A stretch of 64,000 bases of DNA from Caballeronia turbans (GTDB lineage Bacteria > Pseudomonadota > Gammaproteobacteria > Burkholderiales > Burkholderiaceae). Below the pieces are notes generated by a model, which had not been told where the DNA came from, did no database searches, and saw nothing but the letters and a program-made list of their open reading frames with translations. The translations under genes were made by a program, and so were the position numbers. The DNA lies in the NCBI GenBank assembly GCA_001544655.2, contig FCOD02000006.1, forward strand, positions 62,001 to 126,000, given 5' to 3'. This document shows, one piece after another, positions 24,343 through 29,160 of this stretch (position 1 is its first letter; every line of letters starts with the position of its first letter).

Positions 24343-24597
24343 ACGGCTCGGCCATCGGCTGAATACGGCGCTCGCGGGCACGGAAAGCCGGCGGGACCGA
24401 AGATTTCTTCTACGAAGTGACGTCCGGTAACGTGCGCGCGGCGTGTACGCTGTCGGGCACGCCGCTGGCCCGGTGCAGGTGTGCACCGGAGCGGGCGGGC
24501 GGCATCGCTTAAACTCGCAGGTACGCGGCAGGCGGACCGCAACAAGGTCAGGCGCCGCAATCGAACTAGAAAACACCGAAGAAGGGAGACGAGGTCC

Positions 24598-25704
24598 ATG
24601 AACAAGCAACGCTCGACGCGCGCCGCACTGGTGCGCTTTGCCCAAGTCGCGACGGCCAGCGCGGCCTTCGCTCTGCTCGCCGCGTGCGGTGGCGGCGGCG
24701 ATGACAACAATTCCACGCCGGCGGGCGGCGTGAAACTGCAGGTGGTGTCGTTCGGCGACAGTCTTTCCGACGTCGGCACCTATTCGCCGGTCGCGGCGGC
24801 GAACTTCGGCGGCGGCCGGTTCACGACGAATCCGGGTCAGGTCTGGGTGCAGAATGTCGCGCAGTATTACGGCGATACGCTCACGCCGGCGATGACGGGC
24901 GGCTTCGGCACGCCGCCTGCCACGCAAGCGGGTCTCGGCTACGCGCAAGGTGGCGCGCTCGTGACGAATCCGATCGGGATCAATCACGTGTCGACCGATC
25001 CCGCGAATTACACGGGCGCGCTCACGGTGCCGATCGTTCAGCAGGTGCAGAACTATCTCAGCGCACACGGCAGCTTCAATTCGAACCAGCTCGTGATTGT
25101 GAACGGCGGCGGCAACGACATCCTCTATAACTTCCAGCGGGCCGTGGCCGGCGCGATCACGCCGGCACAGGCGAGCGCAGCGATCGGCAAGGCGGCGATC
25201 GACCTCGCCGGTCTGATCGGCAAGGTCGTGCAGAGCGGCGCGACGCACGTACTGGTGTCGAACGTGCCGGACATCGGCGCCACGCCGCAGGGCATGATGA
25301 GCTCGGCGGCCAATCGCGCGTTGCTCACACAGGCATCGCTCGGCTTCAATCAGGCGCTTGCGGCAGCGCTTACGCAGTCGGGACTGATGCCGAAGGTGAT
25401 TTATCTGGACATCGTGCCGGTGCTCGCCAATGTCACGGCGAATTATCAGCAGCTTGGATTCGCGGTTTCGAACACCGGGACGGCCTGTAACCTGCAGGCG
25501 ATGGCGGCGGCGGCGCAGAAGTTCGGCGAGCCCAATCCGCAAGCGTTCGCCACCTCGCTGTTCTGCTCGCCGGAGACGCTGACCGTCGCGGGCGCGGACC
25601 AGACGTACATGTACGCAGACACCGTGCATCCGACGACGCATCTGGGCGCGCTCTATGCGCAGGCGGCGGAGCAGGCGATTGCGAAGTCGGGGTTGGGGAA
25701 GTAA
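24598..25704 (+). CDS. GDSL-family (SGNH) esterase/lipase, lipoprotein
   Basis: Secreted ester hydrolase of 368 residues. A GGGAGACGAGG ribosome site precedes MNKQRSTRAAL. The signal ends LLAAC (Cys30) followed by GGGG, so it is a predicted outer-membrane lipoprotein. The catalytic Ser55 is in SFGDSLSDVG (block I), block III Asn in VNGGGNDIL, and the Asp341-x-x-His344 pair in YADTVHPT (block V). It has no autotransporter barrel. A strong terminator follows, and then the CRISPR array begins within about 130 bp. Confidence 0.92.
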   Translation: MNKQRSTRAALVRFAQVATASAAFALLAACGGGGDDNNSTPAGGVKLQVVSFGDSLSDVGTYSPVAAANFGGGRFTTNPGQVWVQNVAQYYGDTLTPAMTGGFGTPPATQAGLGYAQGGALVTNPIGINHVSTDPANYTGALTVPIVQQVQNYLSAHGSFNSNQLVIVNGGGNDILYNFQRAVAGAITPAQASAAIGKAAIDLAGLIGKVVQSGATHVLVSNVPDIGATPQGMMSSAANRALLTQASLGFNQALAAALTQSGLMPKVIYLDIVPVLANVTANYQQLGFAVSNTGTACNLQAMAAAAQKFGEPNPQAFATSLFCSPETLTVAGADQTYMYADTVHPTTHLGALYAQAAEQAIAKSGLGK

Positions 25705-25730
25705 GCGGGTTCTTTCGGTTGCGAATGGAA

Positions 25731-25767
25731 AACCGCCCGGCGAGAGATCGCCGGGCGGTTTTGTTTT
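25731..25767. terminator. Bidirectional terminator between the esterase gene and the CRISPR array
   Basis: A perfect 12-bp stem AACCGCCCGGCG / CGCCGGGCGGTT (25731-25742 and 25749-25760) with a 6-base loop is followed on the plus strand by TTGTTTT. On the minus strand the stem runs into four T before CC. It ends the esterase transcript and would also stop a minus-strand CRISPR transcript just beyond the last repeat. Confidence 0.85.
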
Positions 25768-25776
25768 GAGGCTTGG

Positions 25777-25804
25777 AAGAGGTGTGCGCGGGCGCGGAGG
25801 AAAC
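25777..25804 (-). repeat. Degenerate CRISPR repeat at the distal (left) end
   Basis: The right half, CGCGGAGGAAAC, is identical to the array repeat but the left half has diverged. It ends 59 bp before the end of the first intact repeat, against 61 bp within the array, leaving a candidate 31-bp spacer at 25805-25835. Decay at one end usually marks the trailer (oldest) end. Confidence 0.6.
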
Positions 25805-25835
25805 ATCACGCCACCGCCGAGGCGATCTTCTGAAA

Positions 25836-26778
25836 GGTGTATCTCCGCACACGCGGAGGAAACTGGCAGAACTCGGGTATGGGTTCGCCTATCGGGGGTC
25901 TATCTCCGCACACGCGGAGGAAACGCGCCCATCGCCATCATCGATCCGGCATATGGGGGTCTATCTCCGCACACGCGGAGGAAACTACAAAGCTCAGACC
26001 CAGTACCTCGATCCTCAGGGTCTATCTCCGCACACGCGGAGGAAACCCTGTCCGCTCGTCGATACAGTCGTCTGTGAAGGGTCTATCTCCGCACACGCGG
26101 AGGAAACGGCCAATCCTATCTTGATCCCGTCTACGACCAGGGTCTATCTCCGCACACGCGGAGGAAACTTTTTTGGAGGTCCATTGCAGTTGACTGACCA
26201 CGGTCTATCTCCGCACACGCGGAGGAAACAAAGTCGTCGCGGTCATGGCTCAGGCCATCCACGGTCTATCTCCGCACACGCGGAGGAAACGGGCCGAACA
26301 GATCGTGCGGCGGCGGATGCAGGTGTCTATCTCCGCACACGCGGAGGAAACGCGAGGATTGCGCACAGCTCTTCCTGGATCATGGGTCTATCTCCGCACA
26401 CGCGGAGGAAACTTGTGCTCTACGCTTGCGACTCGCCGCGCAATGGGTCTATCTCCGCACACGCGGAGGAAACGACGGCTTGCCGCTCACGCTGTCATGG
26501 TCGGACGGTCTATCTCCGCACACGCGGAGGAAACTAGATCCATCGCCGAGCCATCGCTCATCGCGAGGGTCTATCTCCGCACACGCGGAGGAAACTTTGT
26601 TTCCATCACGCGATGGTAGTACCCGAACGGTCTATCTCCGCACACGCGGAGGAAACCTCAGACTCGCGCATAGCGCCTACGGCGGCCCGGGTCTATCTCC
26701 GCACACGCGGAGGAAACCGCGGGTCCGAATCGATGACGAGGATGGGATCGGGTCTATCTCCGCACACGCGGAGGAAAC
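25836..26778 (-). CRISPR. CRISPR array, 16 repeats and 15 spacers, type I-E-like, no cas genes nearby
   Basis: There are sixteen 28-bp repeats; their right ends fall every 61 bp from 25863 to 26778, so all 15 spacers are exactly 33 bp. The repeat contains the perfect hairpin CTCCGC-ACAC-GCGGAG. Read on the minus strand it begins GTTTCCTCCGCGTG and ends GCGGAGATAGACC. That lines up with classical type I-E repeats (6-bp stem, 4-base loop, ATgAACC-like 3' handle). The base after the handle is C in 11 repeats, G in four and T in one, like the protospacer-motif-derived base of type I-E, so 29+32 bp is an equally good description. Only repeat 1 (C to G at position 4) and repeat 9 (position 1) deviate. 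Transcription on the minus strand is inferred. No cas gene occurs in the 64 kb. Confidence 0.97.
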
Positions 26779-26852
26779 CCTAGATGATAACCGCTTGATC
26801 CAAAACCGAAATCCCCGCAACCCATCTTCACAAATGAGGCCCCCGCGCGCCC
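26779..26852 (-). promoter_or_regulatory. CRISPR leader with IHF-like site
   Basis: These 74 bp between the last repeat and the sua5 stop codon are more AT-rich than their surroundings and are the only candidate leader. On the minus strand they contain ATCAAGCGGTTA (26787-26798 on the plus strand), 12 of 13 matches to the IHF consensus WATCAANNNNTTR, starting about 9 bp from the first repeat. In E. coli type I-E arrays, IHF binding in the leader guides spacer integration at a similar distance. I see no convincing promoter, so the array may be read from the upstream sua5 transcript. Confidence 0.55.
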
Positions 26853-27884
26853 TCACTCCTCCCGCTCGAACGCCGCCGCCGCCCTCCCAAGCCGATCATT
26901 CACCGCGATCCACTCGACCGTATCCGGCAGTTTCTCGATGAGAATCCGCTCGACATCCGCCCGATCCAGCGCACGCAACAAACCATACAAATCGCGCGCG
27001 TAACTCTGCGGATTTTCCGGCGCGGCCGCGAAATGCACATGCGCCGCATGCGCCCATTCCCCCGCGCTTGACGCCCTCGCGACCAGCGCGATCTTCCTTC
27101 CGCTCACCCGATCGTGAGCCGCGAGCAACGGCTCGATCGACGCGAACGGCAACAACGCAAGCGGCGTGCGCGGCGCGTAATGCGCCTTCAACGTCCCGGA
27201 AGCGCGCGGCGCCGTGGCATCCGCCCCATCCGGCAACCTCGGCGCAGTACCGATCACATCCGCGATCTGCTGCGGACTCACATGTCCCGGCCGCAGCAGC
27301 GCCGGAAACCCGCGCGACAAATCCAGAATCGTCGATTCGATGCCGACGTCCGCCGCGCCGCCATCGAGCACGTGCACCGCGCTGCCGAACTCGTCGCGCA
27401 CGTGCTGCGCGGTCGTCGGACTGACATGACCAAACCGGTTGGCCGATGGCCCCGCGACGCCGCCCTGCTTCCCCGTGCCGATCCGCCGCGCGTGGAACGC
27501 CGACAACAGTTGCTGCGCCACCGGATGCGACGGACATCGCACGCCCACCGAATCCTGGCCGCCGCTGACCGCCGCCGGAATATGGGCCGCGCGCTTGAGG
27601 ATCAACGTCAAAGGCCCCGGCCAGAACGCATCGATGAGCTTCTGCGCATCTGCGGGCAACTCCCGCACCCAGTAGCCCGGATCGGCTTCGGGCGCGAGAT
27701 GCACGATCACCGGATGATTCGCCGGACGGCCCTTCGCCGCATAAATACGCGCGATGGCGTCCGGATTCTCGGCGTCGCCGCCGAGCCCGTAGACCGTCTC
27801 GGTCGGAAACGCGACGAGTTCGCCCGCATCGAGCAAAGCCGCGGCTTCAGCGATCTGCGCGGCGCTCGGAAAGTGAATGGTCAT
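26853..27884 (-). CDS. sua5: L-threonylcarbamoyladenylate synthase (Sua5 type)
   Basis: Makes threonylcarbamoyl-AMP from threonine, bicarbonate and ATP for the t6A37 tRNA modification. It has 343 residues, so it is the two-domain Sua5 form: YrdC domain at about 1-205 (PTETVYGLGGDA, KGRPANHPVIVH, GPSANRFGHVSPT) and the C-terminal Sua5 domain at about 235-340 linked by SGTLKAHYAPRTPL. It follows purK by 21 bp and appears to be the last gene of the pur string before the CRISPR leader. Confidence 0.94.
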   Translation of the reverse strand: MTIHFPSAAQIAEAAALLDAGELVAFPTETVYGLGGDAENPDAIARIYAAKGRPANHPVIVHLAPEADPGYWVRELPADAQKLIDAFWPGPLTLILKRAAHIPAAVSGGQDSVGVRCPSHPVAQQLLSAFHARRIGTGKQGGVAGPSANRFGHVSPTTAQHVRDEFGSAVHVLDGGAADVGIESTILDLSRGFPALLRPGHVSPQQIADVIGTAPRLPDGADATAPRASGTLKAHYAPRTPLALLPFASIEPLLAAHDRVSGRKIALVARASSAGEWAHAAHVHFAAAPENPQSYARDLYGLLRALDRADVERILIEKLPDTVEWIAVNDRLGRAAAAFEREE

Positions 27885-27905: not shown

Positions 27906-29093
27906 TCAATCGAGCGGGATATGCAGCATCCGCGCGCAGTCACGCGCCGCCGTGCGCGCTTCCTCGAGCGTCGCCGCCGTGAAATTGATGTGGCCCATCT
28001 TGCGGCCCCGGCGCGCCTCTTCCTTGCCGTAGAGATGCAGCCGCGCGGCCGGCATCGCCGCAACCTCCGTCCATGCGGGCGCTCGCGCCTTGTCGCCATC
28101 GAACCAGATATCGCCGAGCAGGTTCAGCATCGCGGCGGGCGAATGCTGGCGCGTATCGCCGAGCGGCATGCCGGTCATCGCGCGGACCTGTTGCTCGAAC
28201 TGGCTCGTCGCGCAGGCATCGACCGTGTAGTGGCCGGAATTGTGCGGACGCGGCGCCATTTCGTTGGCGATCAGCGTGCCATCTTCCAGCACGAAGAATT
28301 CGACGCACAGCACGCCGACATAACCGAGCTTCGCGGCAATGGTCAGCGCGGCGTCCTGCGCCTGCGCGACAAGCGATGCCGAAGCATCGGGCGCAGGCAC
28401 GACCGTCTTCGCGAGAATGCCGTTCACATGCACGTTCTGCGCGAGCGGAAACACGGCCGACTTGCCGTCGCCGCCGCGCGCGATCAGCACGGACACTTCG
28501 TACTTGAGCGGCATGCGCTTCTCGAGCACGCACGGCACGCCCGACAGCGACGCATACGCGTTGCGCACGTCCGCGACATTGCGCACGCTGACCTGCCCCT
28601 TGCCGTCGTAGCCGAGACGCGCGGTCTTGAGAATGCCCGGCAGCACCGCCGCGATCTTCTCGTCGGGCAACGCGGCGAGCGCCTGCGGCGATTCGATCAC
28701 GACATGCGGCGCGACCGGCACGCCCGATGCCGCAATGAAGCGCTTCTCCGCGACGCGGTCCTGCGCGATCGCCACGCAGCTCGCAGCCGGGCTGACGAAC
28801 GTGCACGACGCGAGAAATTCGAGGCTCGCGGAAGGCACGTTCTCGAATTCCGTCGATACCGCCGCGCACAGGCGGCCGAGTTCGGTGAGCGCCGCGCGGT
28901 CGTCATAGGCGGCGCGGATGTGGCGATCCGCGACAGCGCCCGCGGGGCTCGTCTCGTCCGGATCGAGGACGGCGACGCGATAGCCCATCGATTGCGCGGC
29001 GAAGCAGAACATGCGGCCGAGCTGGCCACCGCCGACCATGCCGAGCCATGCGCCCGGCAGGATGGGGGAGATCGGAGAATTGTGTGGGTTCAT
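27906..29093 (-). CDS. purK: N5-carboxyaminoimidazole ribonucleotide synthase
   Basis: ATP-grasp enzyme of purine synthesis that carboxylates AIR to N5-CAIR. It has 395 residues from [14 protein letters not shown]; a second in-frame ATG ten codons upstream is possible, and neither has a strong ribosome site. It has the N-terminal [12 protein letters not shown] nucleotide-binding loop, the central ATP-grasp region ([12 protein letters not shown]) and [13 protein letters not shown], the PurK signature. It follows purE by 67 bp; the two proteins act in consecutive steps. Confidence 0.95.
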
Positions 29094-29160
29094 CGTGGGG
29101 CTTGGGTGGCTGGCTGTGGGCATCAGCGATTGCGCGACGCGCGGTCCGCGCGCGGGGTCA

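Follow-up and report, generated by a model that had tools for sequence, protein, structure and literature searches.

The array of Caballeronia turbans described here shows the repeats of a CRISPR locus and was first described as having no cas genes near it on the 64,000-nucleotide stretch of DNA that was analysed (the window). This raises the question of whether it belongs to a CRISPR-Cas system encoded elsewhere in the genome or represents a remnant, perhaps put to another use. The initial annotation, which assigned the array to type I-E, had put forward both possibilities.

Structure and orientation of the array

The features of the array and its surroundings are collected in Table 1. Both the repeat count and uniform spacer length given earlier and the placement between an esterase gene and sua5 were borne out, the flanking genes lying on opposite strands. 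The window contains 14 exact copies of the 28-bp repeat and two with one mismatch, compared to none in 100 shuffles, and all 15 spacers are of the same length. On the minus strand, the repeat reads 5'-GTTTCCTCCGCGTGTGCGGAGATAGACC-3', which is similar to the type I-E repeat of E. coli. Its computed hairpin has a folding energy of -11.4 kcal/mol (z -3.94), and the dimensions of the array lie within those of type I-E (hairpin repeats of 28-29 nt and spacers of 32-33 nt). With the minus strand as the crRNA strand, the leader falls on the right side of the array; it was assigned to the interval next to sua5 because the repeat on that side is perfect, whereas at the left the last repeat is changed and is followed by a truncated one. 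Fourteen of the 16 repeats are identical to the leader-proximal repeat, which supports recent maintenance of the array, as had been suggested.

Just past the distal end, a weak terminator-like hairpin of five pairs is evident on the minus strand (window positions 25811-25825). The terminator scan of the region returned three sites, where 0.9 were expected, and two of the three are repeat hairpins.

Table 1. Coordinates of the array, its parts and neighbours in the window, and further arrays of the same genome
Feature	Position	Strand	Description
purK	27906..29123	minus	Upstream of sua5, on the strand of sua5
sua5 (threonylcarbamoyl-AMP synthase)	26853..27884	minus	Directly upstream of the array, on its strand
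Leader	26779..26852	minus	74 nt, from the sua5 stop codon to the first repeat
Candidate IHF-like site GATCAAGCGGTTA	26788..26800	minus	From -22 to -10 relative to the first repeat; agrees at 8 of 9 informative positions
CRISPR array	25836..26778	minus (crRNA strand)	16 repeats (28 bp) separated by 15 spacers (33 bp)
Spacer 8	26291..26323	minus	29/33 within a phage-type integrase gene of Caballeronia genome G010
Spacer 15	25864..25896	minus	Oldest (leader-distal); phage/prophage-like cytosine-5 DNA methyltransferase genes
Truncated, decayed 17th repeat	about 25781-25804	minus	Recognized by eye; 31 nt past the last full repeat, distal end
GDSL esterase gene	24481..25704	plus	Other neighbour of the array
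C46A array	contig C46		41 repeats (decayed included); one side of the type I-E cas operon
C46B array	contig C46		10 repeats (decayed included); other side of the type I-E cas operon
C48 array	third contig		14 repeats (decayed included)

A complete type I-E system and three further arrays in the same genome

The genome assembly comprises 7,352,555 bases on 120 contigs, and the window lies on contig C61. The repeat core recurs in three more arrays of this genome, termed C46A, C46B and C48. The first two enclose a complete type I-E operon, which codes for the signature protein of the type, Cas8e/Cse1, together with Cas3, Cse2, Cas7e, Cas5e, Cas6e, Cas1e and Cas2e. Seven of these proteins score above the NCBIfam cut-offs of type I-E models or, for Cas3, of core models, and Cas2e was identified by its open reading frame and Pfam PF09707. 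Cas3 exceeds the cut-offs of two core models and falls short of the one set for the whole-protein model NF007248.

The genome-wide checks proposed in the initial annotation thus gave positive results on both counts: the type I-E cas3, cse1 and cas1-cas2 genes occur on contig C46, and three further arrays carry the same repeat save for base 2. Compared with the most frequent repeat in C46A, C46B and C48, the window repeat is identical in 27 of 28 bases; base 2 is T in all 16 window repeats, whereas the other three arrays have G there in nearly every copy. From the sequences, this difference would fit the self-copying of each array's first repeat and not exchange between arrays.

Whole-genome searches for Cas1 and Cse1 gave no match on contig C61, such that the described lack of cas genes in the window holds for these two proteins; the term "solitary" is apt within the window and inappropriate for the genome. 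The array had seemed to lack cas genes because of the 64-kb horizon, and it is not an orphan in the sense of lacking cognate cas genes genome-wide. The type I-E assignment is supported by the repeat, common to the arrays that flank the I-E operon, and the complete operon on contig C46 supports the suggested dependence on cas genes elsewhere. The location of the array and the operon on different contigs counts against a working array.

The genome also contains the remains of a second CRISPR type, to which the window array might conceivably belong: a broken type I-F locus on contig C29 (locus L268, 4083-8075), with a C-terminal piece of Cas1f, the N-terminal third of Cas3f and a Csy1 above cut-off. 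The 10 kb around this remnant harbor only scattered two- and three-copy matches and no CRISPR-like array, and the window repeat is the one shared with the arrays beside the I-E operon; we therefore give virtually no credence to an affiliation with another type. A VgrG-like gene (recognized by eye) is situated near the remnant, and other Caballeronia genomes yield weak Cas1 matches that score similarly.

Spacers, their targets and the putative PAM

The four arrays of the genome and the sua5-site arrays of seven relatives together provide 140 spacers, all of them distinct. C is the first base of 11 of the 15 spacers in the window array, of 54 of the 75 counted over the four arrays of the genome (p = 5.6e-13; 11 of the 13 C48 spacers were counted, the two adjoining a decayed repeat having been dropped), and of 41 of 65 in the sua5-site arrays of the seven relatives. 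In E. coli, according to the accessible part of PMC10011333, the last base of the PAM enters the array. The C bias would fit such a PAM-derived base at the repeat-spacer junction, which is indicated here by base bias only.

The window array was compared with phages and plasmids, and its 15 spacers were also compared with 398 genomes of the family, as were 31 of 62 spacers from the other arrays (17 of 40 from C46A, eight of nine from C46B and six of 13 from C48). The matches in these genomes are lower bounds, because two candidate places were scored per genome and the genome's own C48 array was missed in the run with the spacers of the other arrays. Spacer 15 is identical in 33 of 33 positions to part of a cytosine methyltransferase gene in the Manatee Spring phage record MW202796. 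Twelve IMG/VR contigs contain the final 31 bases of this spacer without a mismatch, and two of them match in all 33 positions (these two, L258 and L266, bear similar record numbers); 13 of the 398 family genomes match in 30-32 of the 33, the methyltransferase having been checked with Pfam at one locus. The target flank is AA/C at 12 of the 13 genome loci and AA/T at the other, CA/C in MW202796, and CA/C in eight, AA/C in three and CG/T in one of the IMG/VR contigs; both contigs with the exact 33/33 match have AA/C.

The diverged target of spacer 8 in G010 (L160) is flanked by AG/C, and that of C46B spacer 6 by CC/G. The spacers of the other arrays yielded one match outside the genome, in G048 (L254), where 30 of 33 positions agree with a phage baseplate-like gene (named by eye). 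The flanks of the integrase protospacer in G010 and the baseplate-like protospacer in G048 are unlike AA/C. The flanks thus differ between spacers and between the loci of spacer 15, which counts against a settled PAM, and only two of the 15 window spacers have a convincing match to a mobile element, which counts against a working array. Partial patterns of spacers 1, 3 and 8 were found in no viral contig, and comparison of the C46A and C48 arrays with phages gave no match. A match of spacer 5 in G270 (26/33) and matches of spacers 1 and 14 in four aligned loci (24/33), together with additional weak places, were taken as chance or coding similarity.

The spacers also bear on the possibility that the array has been retained for a different task, e.g., the regulation of host genes or the blocking of incoming cas genes. 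Orphan I-F arrays of E. coli with anti-cas spacers provide a precedent (Almendros 2016, as described in the accessible part of PMC8616872). When the genome itself was searched with the window spacers, the array was the sole report (two candidate places were scored, which is not exhaustive). Anti-cas function was assessed with the 140 spacers, derived from 11 arrays: none of the 131 spacers outside C46B matched any of 24 cas loci at 22 or more identical bases, and the nine C46B spacers had no match but their own array, which is inside one of these loci. The earlier proposal of a remnant put to other use therefore gains no support from these searches, the cas operon being complete as well, and we consider retention for another task to be highly improbable.

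The sua5 site across Caballeronia

The stretch following sua5 was taken from all 57 relatives, a few of these stretches being shortened by contig ends. Including the genome under study (G000), eight of the 58 genomes contain an array of 2-16 repeats at this site (G000, G006, G008, G010, G012, G017, G053 and G057). A trace is present in six more, consisting of one or two decayed repeats in G002, G015, G025, G044 and G046 and of the leader only in G022. A search of the 398 family genomes for the leader-repeat junction produced matches in 11, all of them Caballeronia. A tree built from the sua5 region (55 of the 58 genomes, three short stretches being omitted; midpoint root, shown without support values) has the arrays scattered inside one part of the genus. 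We read this distribution as a probable single ancestral array at the sua5 site, followed by repeated loss, with transfer as the alternative.

Matches to Cse1 (E 0.001 or better) were found in 15 of the 58 genomes, nine of them above cut-off, and Cas1e scored above cut-off in 13. Seven of the eight genomes with a sua5-site array have matches to both proteins (the Cse1 of G057 being below cut-off). The eighth, G017, has neither, despite an assembly of five contigs; its 15 sua5-site repeats (L087) are of mixed variants and, judging by the searches for Cse1 and Cas1e, apparently form a true orphan array. In the six trace genomes we detected no Cse1 and no Cas1e above cut-off; a weak match of G044 in the Cas1e search is perhaps another kind of Cas1. 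Six further genomes possess Cas1e above cut-off and have no array at the sua5 site, so that cas genes do not imply an array there. Partial or weak I-E matches were seen in G056 (Cse1 without Cas1e), G013 (Cas1e in two pieces) and G050 (Cas1e with an internal stop), and may reflect ongoing cas decay or assembly gaps. On the 1.3-Mb replicon NZ_CP071130.1 of Caballeronia sp. M1242, seven stretches are similar to the window array (about 68% identity) and are probably arrays of a related repeat.

Decay at this site is pertinent to the possibility of a frozen relic, i.e., an array that was once functional, has ceased either to acquire spacers or to be expressed, and persists as a neutral remnant. 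Such relics are known here from the six Cse1-less traces and from the more diverged repeats of G017, and the distal end of the window array is likewise marked by a decayed repeat. The fraction of repeats equal to the first is 14/16 in the window array versus 4/15 in G017, and 10/11 in G012, 13/16 in G010, 5/6 in G057, 6/10 in G008 and 1/2 in G053; yet it is only 2/12 in G006, which has cas genes. Repeat uniformity thus does not cleanly track the presence of cas genes, the value of G017 being low as expected and that of G006 low too. The conserved leader (see below) and the complete cas operon, with its open reading frames, argue against a relic, and we regard this explanation as improbable.

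Leader, predicted expression and other satellite sites

The repeat-proximal part of the leader, about 50 nt, is similar to the leaders of the sua5-site arrays in seven other Caballeronia genomes; over its last 40 nt, the leader agrees with those of C48 and C46B in 28 and 26 positions, respectively. A 51-position leader consensus, built from the same sequences that were scored on it, is matched in 36-49 positions by the eight genomes with a sua5-site array and in 33-47 by five of the trace genomes, with G044 at chance level (21); the shuffled sequences (1,160) and the 44 genomes that have neither an array nor a trace reached no more than 28 and 25 positions, respectively. Compared with the four-fold sites of sua5, the leader is more alike in 21 of 28 pairs (means of 0.81 versus 0.75, fixed start). 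As the pairs are not independent, this comparison lends mild support to the suggestion that the leader is under constraint.

The leader was scored against an IHF consensus, and contains the candidate site given in Table 1. The best IHF-like match falls at the same distance from the repeat in all 14 related leader ends (-21 to -9 in G006). The score was reached by 0.7% of shuffles for the window leader, versus 7-45% for the other 13 leader ends. In E. coli, the IHF region is located at -9 to -35 (accessible part of PMC10011333).

A simple consensus scan of positions 25650-26900 revealed no sigma-70-like promoter, which says little given that 0.4 would be expected by chance, and no terminator-like site was found on the minus strand in the interval from sua5 to the array. 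Transcription of the array by read-through from sua5 may therefore be possible.

Similar arrangements are evident at other sites. The distance from a Na/Ca exchanger gene to the start of the C48 array behind it is 79 nt, and a trace in G046 occupies this same site, 109-114 nt behind the exchanger gene. In G006, G008 and G015 an array or trace occurs 62-86 nt behind a small lipoprotein-like ORF, a call which is uncertain in view of a second open frame there in G006 and G008. C46B begins 88 nt behind cas2e, and C46A is divergent from cas3, with no same-strand gene ahead of it. In G024, G048 and G049, repeats were listed only next to their own cas loci. One may tentatively propose that the satellite I-E arrays of Caballeronia occupy fixed sites just past the stop codon of a same-strand gene (sua5, the Na/Ca exchanger gene, the small lipoprotein-like ORF or cas2e) and are transcribed by read-through from it, such that housekeeping operons (purE-purK-sua5) would provide crRNA expression and the compact leader would serve mainly in integration; we consider this generalization rather doubtful.

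A distant system that probably serves the array

The window array is very probably a functional satellite, for which the distant, complete type I-E system provides the proteins in trans. The repeat, the complete cas operon, the conservation of both leader and site, the PAM-type base bias and the exact phage target all support this reading. Cas1e-Cas2e from the operon on contig C46 would add new spacers to the leader-side end of the array, next to sua5, under the guidance of the leader and probably of IHF, and the array's own first repeat would be copied in the process; adaptation of the window array would presumably be current. The minus-strand transcript, if produced as predicted, would be cut by Cas6e into crRNAs of about 61 nt, which would be loaded onto the Cascade complex common to all arrays and guide Cas3 to phages and further mobile DNA.

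Comparison with known systems

The CRISPR-2 array of E. coli is located away from the cas operon, and its chromosomal neighbours differ from those of the Caballeronia array. As described in the accessible part of PMC10011333, CRISPR-2 of E. coli K-12 is likewise a second I-E array, with the repeat of CRISPR-1 and one shared cas operon. The first spacer base is mostly C in Caballeronia, as opposed to the PAM-derived G of E. coli K-12. Unlike E. coli CRISPR-2, Caballeronia has three satellite sites, and arrays flank the cas operon of the present genome on both sides. The accessible part of a 2026 survey states that, among arrays whose repeats are identical, distance from the cas locus makes no difference to how often they are updated (PMC12814883). 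In view of the E. coli precedent and such distance-independent updating, the window array is of an already known kind. Orphan arrays without adjacent cas genes have also been described in endophytes of the related genus Burkholderia; there, according to the accessible part of PMC10821513, cas genes were present in one strain only, in contrast to the complete I-E operon in the C. turbans genome.

The question raised by the locus is thus answered in that the array does not lack cas genes, and the new point is a modest one, i.e., fixed satellite sites with a decay series. Among the matches listed in a search of open-licence PMC text, we found no paper on the sua5-site array of Caballeronia, and the survey cited above compares across genomes, its accessible part containing neither the Caballeronia site nor the decay series. 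At this one site in a single genus, the series extends from intact arrays accompanied by cas genes, through G017 with no match to Cse1 or Cas1e, to traces of one or two decayed repeats. Such a series would allow the study of how rapidly an array decays after the loss of its cas genes, and of adaptation in distant versus near arrays.
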